Assembly (NCBI GenBank): GCA_947624005.1
Contig: CANQHV010000008.1
Span: 1-45,413 of the forward strand
From: an uncultured Clostridia bacterium
Lineage (GTDB): Bacteria > Bacillota > Clostridia > Christensenellales > Borkfalkiaceae
DNA: 45,413 nt
Direction of reading: 5' to 3'
Made by a program: the position numbers and the translations under genes
The notes under the pieces: generated by a model
What the model was told of the DNA's origin: nothing
Databases searched by the model: none
What the model saw: the letters and a program-made list of their open reading frames with translations, nothing else
Shown here: in pieces, positions 10,447 to 45,413 of the stretch
Layout of the letters: every line of letters begins with the position of its first letter
Numbering within the stretch: position 1 is the first letter of the stretch

Positions 10447-10485
10447 CGTTAAACGAATATATGCGGAAAATCCGCTTTTCGCTTT

Positions 10486-10600
10486 CGTCTTTTTCCATCC
10501 GGACTATACCGTCGGTACGGGAATTTCACCCGTTCGGGAGCATTGCTCTTCGCAGACTTTACTGCCGGTGGGGAATTGCGCCCCGCCCCAAAGAACGACT
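10486..10600 (-). promoter_or_regulatory. FMN riboswitch (RFN element)
   Basis: The minus strand carries the conserved FMN aptamer words in order: GGGGCGGGGCGCAATTCCCC, ACCGGCAGTAAAGTC, CCCGAACGGGTGAAATTCCC, GTACCGACGGTATAGTCCGG and ATGGAAAAAGACGA. The closing stem pairs about 10486-10492 with 10592-10600. The transcript would start at about 10606, just before the aptamer. A small hairpin (GCGGATTTTCCGC) lies between aptamer and terminator and may belong to the switching region. FMN binding should terminate transcription ahead of ribU. Confidence 0.95.
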
Positions 10601-18582: not shown

Positions 18583-18641
18583 CTCCGTTTGTGTTTTTTA
18601 TTACAACCGCCAAGTCGTAATTCTATTTTACACAAACGGAG
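18583..18641 (-). promoter_or_regulatory. tnpA leader stem hiding the ribosome binding site
   Basis: In the tnpA mRNA, CTCCGTTTGTG (18631-18641) is perfectly complementary to CACAAACGGAG (18583-18593). The latter contains the first bases of the Shine-Dalgarno site, seven to ten bases before the ATG. Sequestration of the start site by leader structure is an established feature of IS200 tnpA; here it is read from sequence only. Confidence 0.7.
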
Positions 18642-18717
18642 TGATTATGTCATCTTTAACGGCATTAGCCTTTACTGAACCCCCAGACTATCTGGGGGTT
18701 TTCGTTATACAAAAAAA

Positions 18718-38159: not shown

Positions 38160-39638
38160 TTACCCGCCGTCGGCATTGCCGTCCGCCGTTCCGCTTTCCG
38201 CGGAGTCGGAACCTGCGCGCGCGGCTGCGGGCGCATTTGCGTTTTCGGGCGTTCCGTTGCCGCCCGAGCCGTCCGCACTTCCGTCCGCGCCGCTATCCGA
38301 GCTGCTGTCTGCGCCGCCCGAGTCCGCGGGCAGGCGCGAATACATTACTTTTAAAAGCACGGGCGTAAGAATCGACGAAATGAGTATCAGAAATACCGTC
38401 ATAATCATAAATTCCGAGCCGAGCGAATACGCCCCAAGCCCCGCGCCCGTAACGGTTGTGGTGACGATAAGCGCGACTTCGCCGCGCGCCATCATTCCCA
38501 CACCGCCTATCGCGCTCTCTTTCCAATTATAGCCGAACGCCTTGCACACGCCGCCGCAGCCCACGATTTTGCCCGCAAGCCCCGCCAGCACCGCGACGAA
38601 CGCAAACAGCAGTATAGCGGGGTCAAGCCCCTCGAAATGTATGCTCGAAATACCGATATTCGCAAAGAACACGGGCGCGAACACCGAATATGTCGCCACC
38701 TCTACCTTTTTGTCGGCGTAAACGCTTGCCCTGTGCGCCGTTGACAGAATAACTCCCGCGAGAAACGCGCCCGTTATATCCGCGACCCCGAAAACCTCTT
38801 CGGCTATCCACGAATACCCGAAGCACACCGCAAGCGAGAAAACGGGGATACGGTGAGTCTGAGGCCAACGCCTATCCATCCACCTGAAACCTTTCGAAAT
38901 AACAAAACCGCACGCAATCGCGAACACGAAGAAAGCGATTATCATTATTATCGTGCCGTATATGGTGGTTTTGAACGCGTCGAAAGCGTTTAAATTTTCA
39001 GCGACGTTCGCCTTGCCTTTCGCAATGCCCGTCACAACCGACAGCACGACTATGCCTATAACGTCGTCGATAATCGCCGCCGATACTATGGTCGTGCCGA
39101 GCTTTGTATTGATTTTACCGAGCTCCTTTAAAACCGAAACGGTAATCGCGACGCTTGTCGCGGTCAGAATTGTGCCTATGAAAATACTGCGGAAGATATT
39201 TACTTCGCTTGCAAAGCCCAAACCGATATTGCCGAAAGGAAGCGACACAAGAAAGCCCAACGCCATAGGCACTATAACGCCGCACAGCGCGATAAGCGAG
39301 GCGCACGCGCCCGTTTCCTTTATCGCTTTAAGGTCGGTTTCCATTCCCGCGGAGAACATAAGTAAAAGCACGCCGACTTTCGCGAAGATATCGAGGGCGT
39401 TGCTGTATTCGCCGCTTACGGGAAGCACGATAAACGCCTTGTAATCTGCGCCCTCGAAGCCGATAAGCGAAACGCCGCACATACCGAAAATCGCGGGTCC
39501 TATAAGTATGCCCGCAATTATAAAGCCGAGTACCTGCGGTAAACCTATTTTTCTGAAAACAAGTCCCAAAACTTTGGTCGAGAACAATATGATGGCGAGT
39601 ACCATCGCAAAGCCCAACGCGGAATTACCTTCAAACAT
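38160..39638 (-). CDS. CPA2-family cation:proton antiporter (NapA/KefB type)
   Basis: 492 aa; start ATG 39638 after AAGGTGG, rather than a longer frame to 39704 over the promoter. About 12-13 membrane helices to residue 430. The ion-binding pair DD lies in VSAAIIDDVIG. LPQVLGFIIAGILIGPAIFG near the N-terminus is typical of Na+/H+ exchangers. Electrogenic exchange of Na+ (or K+) for H+ is inferred from the DD motif. No TrkA-N domain follows; instead the last 60 or so residues are a low-complexity Ser/Asp/Gly/Ala tail (SGGADSSSDSGADGS style) of unknown role. Confidence 0.9.
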   Translation of the reverse strand: MFEGNSALGFAMVLAIILFSTKVLGLVFRKIGLPQVLGFIIAGILIGPAIFGMCGVSLIGFEGADYKAFIVLPVSGEYSNALDIFAKVGVLLLMFSAGMETDLKAIKETGACASLIALCGVIVPMALGFLVSLPFGNIGLGFASEVNIFRSIFIGTILTATSVAITVSVLKELGKINTKLGTTIVSAAIIDDVIGIVVLSVVTGIAKGKANVAENLNAFDAFKTTIYGTIIMIIAFFVFAIACGFVISKGFRWMDRRWPQTHRIPVFSLAVCFGYSWIAEEVFGVADITGAFLAGVILSTAHRASVYADKKVEVATYSVFAPVFFANIGISSIHFEGLDPAILLFAFVAVLAGLAGKIVGCGGVCKAFGYNWKESAIGGVGMMARGEVALIVTTTVTGAGLGAYSLGSEFMIMTVFLILISSILTPVLLKVMYSRLPADSGGADSSSDSGADGSADGSGGNGTPENANAPAAARAGSDSAESGTADGNADGG

Positions 39639-39659
39639 AAACCACCTTTTTACGTTAAA

Positions 39660-39688
39660 ATTATACTCTGCGCAAAAAAAATTGTTAA
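39660..39688 (-). promoter_or_regulatory. Promoter of the antiporter gene
   Basis: TTAACA (39683-39688), 17-bp spacer, TATAAT (39660-39665). Confidence 0.7.
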
Positions 39689-39869
39689 GCGAATTTCGCC
39701 GCAAAGTTTTTAAAAATTTCTTATGCGCCGCATAAACAAAATTTAACAGAATTTAACTTTCCGCGCCGCGCGCGAAAAACCCCGCCCCCGCGCGGCGGAA
39801 ATTCCGCGCAAAAAAAAGGCGATTGCGGCAAGAAATCAAGTCAAATGCGGCGAAATCAATGGCAAAATT

Positions 39870-42083: not shown

Positions 42084-42770
42084 TCAGTCCTCTAACAGCC
42101 GTAAAATTCTGTCTTCCGTGTCGCCGCTTTTCAAATCGTCCACGGTTTTTATCAGCTTGCCCGACTTCATAACAAACACTTCCGAGCAAACCGAGGCGAT
42201 ATCCGCTATCGAGTGCGAAGATATAAGCACGCTTTTGCCCCTTTTCGCCTCCGTCGTAATAATATCCTTGAACAGTCTTACAGTTATCGGGTCTACGCCG
42301 TTGAACGGCTCGTCCAAAATAAGCGCGTCGGGTTCGTTTATCAGCGCGTACGCAAAGTGCAATCTCTGCTTCATACCCGTGGAATACTTTCCGAATTTTT
42401 TATCGCCGTGTTCGTAAAGCCCTACTCTTACGAGGGCGGCTTCGACGTCGTCGTCGGTCAGATTTTCGTACAGCCTTACAAGAACGCGCAGATTATCCCT
42501 GCCCGAAAGATTTTTGAAAAACGCGGGTTCCTCTATCATATACCCGAGTTTAAACGAATTTTTCCGCGCTTTTTGTACGGGTTCGCCGTTCCATAGAATT
42601 TCGCCGCCGTCGAGGCGGGCAAGCGAGCAGATAAGCTTCATAAGCGTGGATTTACCCGCGCCGTTCAACCCGACAAGCCCGTAAACTTTACCCTCGCCGA
42701 GCTTAAAACTTACGCCGTTTACCGCATACGCGCCCTTATATTTTTTTTCTGCGTTTATAACTTCCAACAT
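42084..42770 (-). CDS. ABC-2-type exporter ATPase
   Basis: 228 aa ATP-binding subunit. Walker A GLNGAGKST (34-42), Q-loop region YMIEEPAFFKNLSGRDNLR, a weak signature YSTGMKQRL, Walker B ALILDEPFNGVD and H-loop SSHS. This branch (CcmA/BcrA-like) powers export or resistance against peptides such as bacitracin or lantibiotics, though the substrate here is unknown. No ribosome binding site precedes the ATG: it begins three bases after the T-run of a terminator hairpin, at the end of a ~400-nt leader RNA. First gene of a three-gene operon. Confidence 0.9.
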   Translation of the reverse strand: MLEVINAEKKYKGAYAVNGVSFKLGEGKVYGLVGLNGAGKSTLMKLICSLARLDGGEILWNGEPVQKARKNSFKLGYMIEEPAFFKNLSGRDNLRVLVRLYENLTDDDVEAALVRVGLYEHGDKKFGKYSTGMKQRLHFAYALINEPDALILDEPFNGVDPITVRLFKDIITTEAKRGKSVLISSHSIADIASVCSEVFVMKSGKLIKTVDDLKSGDTEDRILRLLED

Positions 42771-42773
42771 AAT

Positions 42774-42814
42774 AAAAAAATCAACCCCCGCGAACGGTAC
42801 GTCGCCGCGGGGGT
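42774..42814 (-). terminator. Attenuator terminator touching the exporter start codon
   Basis: ACCCCCGCG (42806-42814) pairs with CGCGGGGGT (42784-42792), followed by TTGA and seven T (42774-42780). The exporter ATG lies at 42768-42770. Confidence 0.75.
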
Positions 42815-43190
42815 ATATATATTTATTTAATTTTAATTTCGAGGTCGCCTCCCCACGGTACGCTATGCGCCAAGGTGGTTATTAAAACCGTTGCAAACCC
42901 AAGTTTGCGAAATTAAAACCGTGTTCCGGAATCAGACCTCCACGTCCGAATAGTACATTGGAGTTTACCTTTCCTTTTAATTAATCGTCCTTGCAAAGTA
43001 AAGTCTTTTCATAACTCTACCTCCAAACAATTAAATTTTAGTTCCCTTATCATATAGAGGCGGTGCAATTGCTAACCGTACTCTGAAAAATTTAACCTTG
43101 TCCCGCTTTCGCGGCTACTTATATTTCATAATAGCTCACCGTAAATTAATGTTGGTACCTAACATTTTTTGTAAGTTATTTTCTTTTTGT
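42784..43190 (-). ncRNA. Long structured leader RNA of the ABC exporter, unidentified class
   Basis: About 400 nt between a strong promoter and the exporter. Features in RNA order: hairpin AATGTT-AGGTACC-AACATT; CCGC-GAAA-GCGG tetraloop (43114-43103); a long helix TTAAATTTT (43095-43087) with AAAATTTAA (43039-43031) enclosing AGAG/CTCT and CGGT/ACCG helices; TTGGAG pairing with CTCCAA around a mini-ORF; GCAAAC/GTTTGC; and GAGGTC pairing with GACCTC about 95 nt apart. It ends in a terminator (42784-42814). It holds short ORFs, some with ribosome binding sites (MKYK, MKRLYFARTIN, MYYSDVEV). I do not recognise the family; attenuation control of the exporter is the simplest reading. Confidence 0.55.
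42977..43012 (-). CDS. Leader peptide candidate MKRLYFARTIN
   Basis: 11-codon ORF, ATG at 43012, stop TAA, with a perfect GGAGG (43020-43024) seven bases upstream. It lies inside the exporter leader RNA. The GGAG can pair with CTCC just after the ORF, so ribosome movement could alter RNA folding. Neighbouring mini-ORFs: 43129-43115 (MKYK) and 42958-42932 (MYYSDVEV). Translation is unproven. Confidence 0.4.
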   Translation of the reverse strand: MKRLYFARTIN

Positions 43191-43196
43191 ACTTTC

Positions 43197-43224
43197 ATTA
43201 TAGCACGGTTTTTTGCCTTGTCAA
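43197..43224 (-). promoter_or_regulatory. Promoter of the exporter leader RNA
   Basis: TTGACA (43219-43224), 16-bp spacer, TATAAT (43197-43202), both perfect. Start near 43190. Confidence 0.8.
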
Positions 43225-43314: not shown

Positions 43315-43920
43315 TCAGTCTTTGAGGTTGCGCAATTGAAGTTTTAAAAGCGCGTTTTCGTCGGTAAGTTTTTTGATAAGCGCGGTAAGCCGTTTGTTTT
43401 CGTCTTTAAGGGCAAGCGCAAGCCTGTCGTAAAGCCCGTTTATCTCCGCTTCGAGCCGTTTTTGCCCCTCGTCGGGCGAGGACGATATAATGCCGCACTC
43501 ACGCATCAGCCGCTGTATGCGCTCGGGCTGTTTATTCAGAACGTTTCTGTACTTGTTCTGGTACCGAAGCATAAGCTTGTCGTCGCCCGCCGCAAGGTTA
43601 AGCACGGCGCGGCGCACGGATATTCCCCGTTGCTTCTGGGTAAGTATTTCTTTGAGAATCCTGTCCGTTTCCTCCTCGGAAAACTGTACTATTTTTTCCG
43701 CCTTCAAGCCCGTGCCGCGCAGCATATTTTTTACCCTTTTGTCGCCCGTGGACCGCAAAAGCGCGTAATAGTAATTTCTTACGCTCCCCTTTGCCCTGCC
43801 CGTCTTTTCCGCATAGCCCGAAAACAGCTTCGAAAGCGTTTGCCCGCTCTCTCGTCCGCGGGTTATATAATCGACAAGCGATTTAGCCTCTTCTTCGGTA
43901 TAGCCGTTTATTTTATTCAT
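43315..43920 (-). CDS. Putative HTH DNA-binding protein with C-terminal coiled coil
   Basis: 201 aa, strongly basic. Residues about 5-70 (EEEAKSLVDYITRGRESGQTL, then KTGRAKGSVRNYYYALL) look like a SANT/Myb- or RsfA-like helical DNA-binding unit. Residues about 78-125 (FSEEETDRILKEILTQKQRG, then SVRRAVLNLA) look like a second copy. Residues about 155-200 form a heptad-rich coiled coil ending in ALLKLQLRNL. GGAGG before ATG. Likely a sequence-specific regulator acting as a dimer; no named family can be assigned with confidence. Divergent from the orphan at 43985. Confidence 0.7.
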   Translation of the reverse strand: MNKINGYTEEEAKSLVDYITRGRESGQTLSKLFSGYAEKTGRAKGSVRNYYYALLRSTGDKRVKNMLRGTGLKAEKIVQFSEEETDRILKEILTQKQRGISVRRAVLNLAAGDDKLMLRYQNKYRNVLNKQPERIQRLMRECGIISSSPDEGQKRLEAEINGLYDRLALALKDENKRLTALIKKLTDENALLKLQLRNLKD

Positions 43921-44914: not shown

Positions 44915-45318
44915 TTATATTGCTGGCGCAGTGATATTGCTTACGCAGTGATATTTTGCCTTACGGCAAAGTGAGATTGCTATCGCAGTGATATTTTGCC
45001 TTACGGCAAAGTGAGATTGCTATCGCAGTGATATTGCTTCGCAGTGATATTTTGCCTTACGGCAAAGTTTTTAACTTTCGCTTCGCGAAAATCTCACTTT
45101 CGCTTTGCGAAAATCTAACTGTTTGCAACGCAAACAATCTAACTTCGGCTCTGCCGAAATATAACTTCCGCTTGCGGAAATCTCACTGTCCGCACCGCGG
45201 ACACTCTCACTGTTTGCAACCGCAAACAATATAACTTCGGCTCTGCCGAAATCTCACTTCCGCTTGCGGAAATCTCACTGTCCGCAACGCGGACACTCTC
45301 ACTGTTTGCAAAGCAAAC
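44913..45318. repeat. Mosaic array of short 3-nt-loop hairpins with 8-nt linkers
   Basis: Twenty or so small palindromes, e.g. TTTGCC-TTAC-GGCAAA, TTCGC-TTC-GCGAA, GTTTGC-AAC-GCAAAC, TTCGGC-TCT-GCCGAA, TTCCGC-TT-GCGGAA and GTCCGC-AAC-GCGGAC, are joined by linkers AGTGATAT/AGTGAGAT (left part) or ATCTCACT/ATATAACT/ATCTAACT (right part). The right linkers are reverse complements of the left type, switching at about 45066-45080. A 40-bp block repeats exactly at 44950 and 44990. The array starts at the stop codon of the 309-aa gene and ends at the IS200 boundary. No coding frame is credible. Confidence 0.85.
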
Positions 45319-45413
45319 AAAAGATACCCGCCGGCATAGCCGGCGGTTCTTCATTTTCGGGCATAGCCCTTGTTTACTAGCCGCGAGCAACGCTCGCGTA
45401 TGACGACCTGGCG
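45319..45413 (-). mobile_element. Second IS200 copy, tnpA-downstream end (cut by window end)
   Basis: Bases 45319-45413 match 18007-18101 at 94 of 95 positions; the one difference (A at 45336 for G at 18024) lies in the 3-nt loop of the first hairpin. The same orientation as the first copy; tnpA would lie just beyond the window. Confidence 0.9.

Follow-up and report, generated by a model that had tools for sequence, protein, structure and literature searches.

Upstream of an ABC exporter gene in an uncultured member of the Clostridia lies a consensus promoter followed by some 420 nt of DNA, and the question raised by this locus is whether the transcript serves the exporter or is the product of a gene in its own right. 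The stretch analysed, here called the window, is 45,413 nt long and makes up contig C8 of a genome that is 77% complete in 18 contigs. We assign this genome to the genus Candidatus Coproplasma (Clostridia), a name that rests on one record.

A preliminary description had proposed a heavily folded attenuator leader with mini-ORFs that controls the exporter. All of the features it reported at 42771-43224 are present on the minus strand, including mini-ORFs encoding MKYK*, MKRLYFARTIN* (with GGAGG) and MYYSDVEV* and a further AUG at 43053. The overall reading was only partly supported. Three properties become visible only when relatives are compared, namely a self-complementary hairpin loop, a site complementary to a small RNA (sRNA) and the standing of the unit as its own gene. 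We consider the anatomy of this RNA and its independence as a gene to be very probable. Its anatomy is well supported, and its mechanism and purpose we infer from sequence; we read it, with confidence a little short of even, as a translation-gated switch formed by a stand-alone structured RNA of ~420 nt.

The RNA gene in the genus

The limits of the transcription unit in the window are as follows.

43197..43224, minus strand: promoter, TTGACA-16-TATAAT (read 43224-43197), with a predicted transcription start near 43191
42772..42813, minus strand: intrinsic terminator, with two-sided changes in 6 of 8 stem pairs and 96.5% of cells paired

When 200 relatives were searched at the DNA level, 90 matched, chiefly from the same genus, the match being confined in some cases to a 25 nt sRNA site. 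Reading identified the RNA itself in 74 of the 93 genus genomes (loci L002-L075), many of which are incomplete. A pattern taken from the 5' end of the RNA matches 25 named contigs, one from Candidatus Coproplasma excrementipullorum. Locus L076 was a chance match and is left out of the homologue counts, and it is still within the 76 loci of the ATPase and antiporter surveys. The query used in the homology search excluded the promoter. A promoter with no more than one mismatch from TTGACA/TATAAT and a spacing of 16-18 nt was found at all 73 testable loci (43 exact), two loci cut by contig ends having been left out. The length of the RNA ranges from about 290 to 770 nt, usually ending in a terminator. 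The RNA is very probably a stand-alone gene and, judging by its promoter, probably an abundant transcript.

A covarying structure

The segment 43191-42771 folds at -111.6 kcal/mol, which agrees with the heavily folded leader described earlier, but the z score is -2.68 and 3 of 100 shuffled sequences folded equally well, so folding energy alone lends modest support. The comparative evidence is far stronger. It concerns these elements, together with the terminator.

43103..43114, minus strand: hairpin CCGC-GAAA-GCGG, in the same module as mini-ORF 0, with two-sided changes in 4 of 4 pairs and 96.3% of cells paired
42841..42940, minus strand: 3' domain, helices P1-P6, supported by covariation and found by model R1 (below) in three other genera
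42940-42935 with 42846-42841, minus strand: helix P1, supported by covariation
42908-42893, minus strand: P4 hairpin, part of the 3' domain with P2, P3 and P6
42889-42877, minus strand: P5 hairpin, part of the 3' domain

An RNAalifold consensus guided the structure, which was fitted to the window sequence and evaluated on A1. This MAFFT alignment comprises 46 loci out of the 75 that are homologous, namely those with distinct sequence and an automatically located terminator ending within 500 nt. Such a terminator was found in 57 of the 73 loci tried, some of them probably wrong, and A1 left out L011, L017, L036 and L077. On A1, where the pairing counts are inflated because the structure was derived from the same, related sequences, 89.2% of cells are paired (80.0% when shuffled), two-sided changes occur in 35 of 53 pairs (26.0 shuffled), 264 cells are two-sided (87.8 shuffled) and the covariation is 0.318 (0.168 shuffled). 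None of 500 shuffles did as well on any of these four measures, and sliding the partner strand left 37-45% of cells paired. Counts on a further alignment, A3, lean to the model and were kept out of the evidence.

The strong helices are P1 (two-sided changes in 6 of 6 pairs), the module hairpin and the terminator. P1 is the GAGGTC/GACCTC helix of the preliminary description, and 94.2% of its cells are paired. P2, P5 and P6 are weaker, at 76%, 76% and 68% of cells, respectively. RNAalifold applied to A1 alone retained the terminator, the module hairpin, P1 and a 2 bp helix and nothing else, so the support for P2-P6 comes from the counted structure and the other alignment. A UUUUAAUUUCG/CGAAAUUAAAA pseudoknot that is perfect in the window was dropped, as no more than 275 of its 455 cells are paired in A1. 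RNAalifold also suggested a long-range UUAC/GUAA helix, whose bases pair in 175 of 184 cells and hardly vary, so this helix is neither supported nor excluded.

Mini-ORFs within the RNA

The RNA carries three located mini-ORFs.

43115..43129, minus strand: mini-ORF 0, MKYK*, 4 codons, which opens a module repeated in some relatives
43019..43024, minus strand: Shine-Dalgarno GGAGGU of mini-ORF A, which can pair with 43056-43061
42977..43012, minus strand: mini-ORF A, MKRLYFARTIN*, with coding selection and a GGAGG-like site ahead
42932..42958, minus strand: mini-ORF B, MYYSDVEV*, whose last codons form the 5' strand of P1

The module made up of mini-ORF 0 and its hairpin is present in 56 of 75 loci, with two or three copies in L010, L055 and L057. 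The helix that would sequester the Shine-Dalgarno of ORF A is paired in 88.5% of cells and covaries weakly, with two-sided changes in 2 of 6 pairs.

The products of ORF A in relatives resemble [KR]L[YF]F[AS][RK]T[IN]ExKGR. The test for coding selection covered 62 loci with 58 distinct sequences. Of 3794 single-base codon differences in the ORF A frame, 1315 are synonymous (35%) vs 453 of 3119 (15%) and 549 of 3180 (17%) in the other two frames, the counts being made over sequence pairs that are not independent events. Loci where the ORF B anchor failed or fell on A, or where the gap between A and B was not 6, 15 or 18 nt, were left out. By this measure ORF A is under coding selection, which bears out the importance given to the mini-ORFs at the outset; the prospect that they would turn out not to be conserved was not realized for ORF A. 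A short ORF under coding selection ahead of a terminator is the arrangement of a leader-peptide attenuator.

The stop codon of ORF A and the AUG of ORF B are separated by 6 nt in 54 of 73 loci and by 18 nt in the window. In 45 of 46 aligned RNAs, the ORF B stop falls 3-9 nt past the 5' strand of P1, and translation of ORF B, ending just beyond that strand, must therefore disturb P1. In other genera the same layout was seen by reading, with different peptides such as MYRSDLRKLA. At one of those loci, L231, reading also revealed at least five start-site modules resembling AAAGGACGGUANNCUCCRAUG, as if mini-ORF starts duplicate.

The coding selection on ORF A and the predominant 6 nt spacing would also suit a messenger for functional micropeptides (ORF A and perhaps B), in which the structures protect the RNA and set its translation. 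However, peptide A varies between genera, on reading, while the layout and the 3' domain persist, and ORF B is short and tied to P1. We therefore regard a micropeptide messenger as unlikely. A translation-gated switch would give ORF B a part in the fate of the 3' domain, and its upstream control would involve a second RNA.

A partner sRNA

A 25 nt part of the large RNA matched a second place in many genomes. These matches turned out to mark an sRNA encoded on the opposite strand.

L087:4741-4632 (G000:C11), minus strand: sRNA gene, ~105 nt, trans-encoded
43044..43065 of the window, minus strand: sRNA-complementary site, including the anti-Shine-Dalgarno GCCUCU at 43056-43061, with a duplex energy of -41.5 kcal/mol

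On reading, the sRNA has its own promoter and terminator, together with a 5' hairpin and a C-rich seed that hardly varies. It was read in 70 genus genomes; the search counted 82 of 93, some of these being the complementary site in the large RNA. Across 35 sequences the terminator stem is 100% paired, with two-sided changes in 9 of 15 pairs. Allowing at most one mismatch, the 19 nt seed, UCAUUUUCCCCCUUAUCAU, is present in 231 of the 301 genomes of the family, spanning 15 of its 18 genera, and a control in which it was read backwards gave one match. The sRNA has no Rfam match. At L226, the one locus outside the genus where the surroundings of the seed were examined, the core of the large RNA is followed by the seed 110 nt downstream on the same strand.

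In the window's genome the duplex of the two RNAs has a z score of -7.6, and none of 100 shuffles was as strong. The AUG at 43053 sits inside the sRNA site. From the 74 loci of the large RNA and the 70 of the sRNA, 58 genomes with both RNAs were available, and duplex energies were calculated ignoring the fold of each RNA on its own. The duplex was stronger than all 100 shuffles in 29 of the 58, and in 28 of these the site lies just ahead of the Shine-Dalgarno of ORF A; the best site in L041 is elsewhere. L025 has a site before the Shine-Dalgarno that was matched by 1 of 100 shuffles. Pairing beyond that of shuffles was not found in 28 of the 58 genomes. In L058 the site and the sRNA of the same genome differ together. 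With its promoter, terminator, seed and complementary target, the small transcript has the make-up of a trans-acting base-pairing sRNA. As the site includes the segment that pairs with the Shine-Dalgarno of ORF A, binding of the sRNA should free it.

The spread of the seed over 15 of 18 genera indicates that the sRNA has a role beyond the large RNA. The window's own genome contains six near matches to the seed complement. The near match L187 (G000:C6:37649) falls on the start site of an ORF that is long and begins like a secreted protein, and is a possible sRNA target. Another, L184, looks like a T-box leader.

This wider role of the sRNA, the nearly perfect pairing over about 20 nt in many genomes and the consensus promoter would all be in keeping with the large RNA acting mainly as a target mimic or sponge, taking the sRNA out of circulation and keeping its C-rich seed off mRNAs, with mini-ORF translation tuning only the lifetime of the RNA. 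But the 28 genomes where both RNAs occur without pairing beyond shuffles tell against a sponge, which would also fail to explain why ORF A is under coding selection and why the 3' domain is conserved, and we give it little credence. For a translation-gated switch, the sRNA would be one input, in this clade.

A self-complementary 5' loop

Close to its 5' end the RNA forms a hairpin that presents a palindrome.

43149..43165, minus strand: 5' hairpin AUGUU-A-GGUACC-AACAU, with a 7 nt loop and a nearly constant stem
43154-43159, minus strand: self-complementary hexamer, the proposed kissing-loop dimer contact

A loop with an exact 6 nt palindrome was found in 70 of 74 genus loci, compared with 63 of 3700 mononucleotide-shuffled leaders. 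There are 11 different palindromes, including GGTACC, GCGCGC, AGCGCT, GACGTC, GGCGCC and GCTAGC. Among the four loci that have no exact palindromic loop, three retain GGTACC but have a mismatch in the stem, and the fourth carries a G-U variant. On A1 all three loop pairs have two-sided changes and 95.7% of cells are paired. Since the bases of the hexamer cannot pair together inside one small loop, two molecules must meet, and we propose that the hairpin is a kissing-loop dimer contact. The covarying self-complementary loop that marks homo-oligomeric ornate RNAs was thus found, in this genus only; in the other genera no palindromic loop was seen on reading, and a different 5' hairpin is present there.

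The palindrome lies just downstream of the promoter and its arms, TGTT/AACA, are nearly constant, as might be expected if it were an operator in the DNA and not a kissing loop in the RNA. However, the axis of the hexamer is half a base off that of the arms, on one side in 58 loci and on the other in 12, whereas a dyad operator would share one axis with its arms. The hexamer also varies yet stays self-complementary. A DNA operator is accordingly very unlikely, and we retain the kissing-loop contact of a structured RNA.

Neighbouring genes

Two genes near the RNA bear on its independence.

42084..42770, minus strand: ABC ATPase gene (PF00005), abutting the terminator, a local neighbour outside the RNA system
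38160..39704, minus strand: Na+/H+ antiporter gene (PF00999), a divergent neighbour in most relatives, displaced here

As first described, the T-run of the terminator adjoins the ATG of the ABC ATPase gene at 42770, which has no Shine-Dalgarno nearby. The ATPase is nearest to lantibiotic-protection ATPases, below the cut-off (185 vs 310 bits), and its PADLOC matches look like general ATPase similarity. The downstream survey reached 638-2214 nt past the start of the RNA. An ATPase that is 28% identical to that in the window is found in L009, about 1 kb from the RNA start. The commonest co-oriented downstream ORF encodes a membrane protein (15 of 75 loci, 536-1595 nt after the RNA start), a convergent gene lies downstream in up to 21 of the 75 loci, and among these 75 loci no gene is directly and consistently downstream. 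A leader-peptide attenuator of the exporter, for which the abutting terminator, the mini-ORFs with good ribosome-binding sites and the nearest relatives of the ATPase might speak, is therefore rejected on synteny, as the exporter follows the RNA in just 1 of 75 homologous loci, there is no consistent downstream gene and the alignment, on reading, offered no antiterminator partner for the terminator; such control is most improbable, though in the window's genome it may still occur as a local by-product.

The commonest neighbour is the Na+/H+ antiporter gene, which is upstream and divergent in 55 of 76 loci (the copy at L055 is only 27% identical). In the window it is three genes downstream of the RNA in the same direction, and the window's genome has therefore been rearranged here. 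At none of the 15 homologues from other genera was the antiporter found as a neighbour, so this link is not general. Upstream of the RNA in the window, 43315-43920 (minus strand) encodes a 201 aa protein with no Pfam or NCBIfam match. Further on, at 44930-45330, dense short repeats and inverted repeats, such as GATATTTTGCCTTACGGCAAAGTGAG, were seen on reading.

A BoxA-like motif before the terminator

Between the 3' domain and the terminator lies a short A/U-rich motif.

42824..42834, minus strand: BoxA-like motif, AAAAUUAAAUA, before the terminator

The pattern A[AC]AA[CT][TA][TGA]AATA, drawn up after the data had been seen and itself A/U-rich, is found before the terminator in 46 of 46 aligned RNAs and in 4 of 4600 shuffled 3' ends. 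The form of BoxA in the rRNA operons of Firmicutes is CUUUGAAAACUGAAUA. A 16S rRNA gene was found in 7 of the 93 genus genomes, and none in the window's own metagenome-assembled genome. In all seven, UUAAAAAUUGAAUAG / AAAAUUGAAUA is present upstream of 16S, and in three of the seven ACAACUGCAUA follows it. The RNA, too, has versions of the motif starting AAAA and ACAA, and UUAAAAAUUGAAUAG of the rRNA leaders fits its BoxA-like motif. The likeness to the rRNA leaders was thus seen with a post hoc pattern, and for this reason the BoxA reading is only suggestive. At L246, three similar promoter-like units were seen, by reading, in a row ahead of 16S. Letters similar to CUUUGAAAACUGAAUA appear as PCR primers in PMC3019172 and PMC4739695, in passages that do not mention BoxA.

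Homologues in other genera and novelty

When R1, a covariance model of the 3' domain, was used to query 301 family genomes, 54 gave a match, namely 39 of the 53 that belong to the genus and 15 of the remaining 248, the latter in three other genera. Matches outside the genus had E values from 9e-6 to 0.007, with two or three chance matches expected there. All 15 homologues have a promoter-like site 182-488 nt upstream (one mismatch allowed per hexamer, spacing 16-18 nt); such a site was present in 28 of 600 shuffles and, on the opposite strand, at 5 of the 15 loci. The AUG of ORF B is kept in 14 of the 15 and the BoxA-like motif is present in 14 if its last base may be C, or in 12 with the stricter pattern. 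These three features speak against chance as the source of the 15 matches. R1 misses many family genomes, including G100, whose homologue L077 was read. At the level of the order, 11 of 396 genomes matched, all from the same genus, under stricter filters that lose weak matches.

Searching the window against Rfam 15 gave three matches at the gathering cut-off, none of them at the RNA locus. No match was returned for the 15 loci in other genera, four sRNA-seed loci or 12 varied homologue loci, and a permissive scan of the leader yielded sub-threshold matches only. A known RNA family, which would have ended the matter, is thereby ruled out, and with its strong covariation the RNA suits the new structured RNA that had been put forward as the alternative to an attenuator. 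Both the large RNA and the sRNA are new relative to Rfam. No description of either was found in the literature, judged from titles and the openings of abstracts and with few subscription papers covered; an unnamed entry for the RNA in a survey such as PMC8040213 is possible. Phage or plasmid origin was rejected at blastn sensitivity, with no match among 50,697 phage or 72,556 plasmid records. Elsewhere in the window are an FMN riboswitch (10483-10600, minus strand, 103.1 bits) and a match to STnc490 (18586-18700, minus strand, 62.8 bits) just ahead of an ATG. The STnc490 structure occurs in the leaders of IS200 transposase genes, and 18586-18700 is probably part of an IS200-like element.

A proposed mechanism

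The elements described above could act together as follows. Two copies of the RNA would join through their 5' kissing loops. In the resting state, the Shine-Dalgarno of ORF A would be held by the upstream CCGCCUCU and, in this clade, the sRNA would pair with CCGCCUCU and release it. Ribosomes would then read ORF A and restart at ORF B, and a ribosome finishing ORF B would sit on one strand of P1, so that the 3' domain would open. Opening would alter what the 3' domain and the BoxA-like motif present, most likely to NusB-S10, and the RNA would in this way report or titrate the state of the translation machinery in trans. The steps from ribosome entry onwards are inferred from geometry. That translation opens the 3' domain seems to us an evenly balanced proposition, and Nus factors as the readout are a tentative and rather doubtful suggestion. 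The same caution applies to the fullest form of the proposal, a speculative one, in which a dimeric RNA machine uses sRNA-licensed translation of throw-away mini-ORFs to open a Nus-site domain and so senses translational capacity in trans, with no attached gene.

Relation to known systems and significance

Parts of this RNA have counterparts elsewhere. RNAIII of Staphylococcus aureus is a dual-function RNA, a structured regulator that also encodes a small peptide. The RNA described here likewise combines structure with a small coding ORF, but it has a pair of adjacent mini-ORFs, of which the second overlaps a structural helix, and comes from different organisms. In the leader-peptide attenuators of trp, erm and cat, the position of a ribosome on a short ORF selects the fold of the RNA. 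A ribosome on a short ORF would choose the fold here too; unlike in those systems, the RNA is a stand-alone transcript with no consistent downstream gene. The motif before the terminator resembles the BoxA of the genus rRNA leaders, and BoxA outside rRNA operons is known at suhB (PMC5725501). In contrast to both settings, the putative motif here directly precedes the intrinsic terminator of a small RNA gene. OLE, ROOL and GOLLD are large structured bacterial RNAs that form homo-oligomers with kissing loops, and for OLE and GOLLD a change from one palindrome to another served as evidence of the contact (PMC12286853). We likewise propose a kissing-loop homo-oligomer and argue from palindrome changes, here with sequence as the sole source. 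The RNA differs from OLE, ROOL and GOLLD in being separate from them by Rfam and in having mini-ORFs, one under coding selection, and a partner sRNA.

Bacterial transcripts are usually classed as messengers, leaders or non-coding RNAs. This RNA mixes a stand-alone promoter and fold with a selected mini-ORF and has no consistent target gene. Whether translation can gate an RNA that acts in trans could be tested directly with it, and its 11 natural self-complementary loops provide a series for testing RNA dimerisation. The analysis also reveals a second RNA, an sRNA whose 19 nt seed is shared by most genera of the family.
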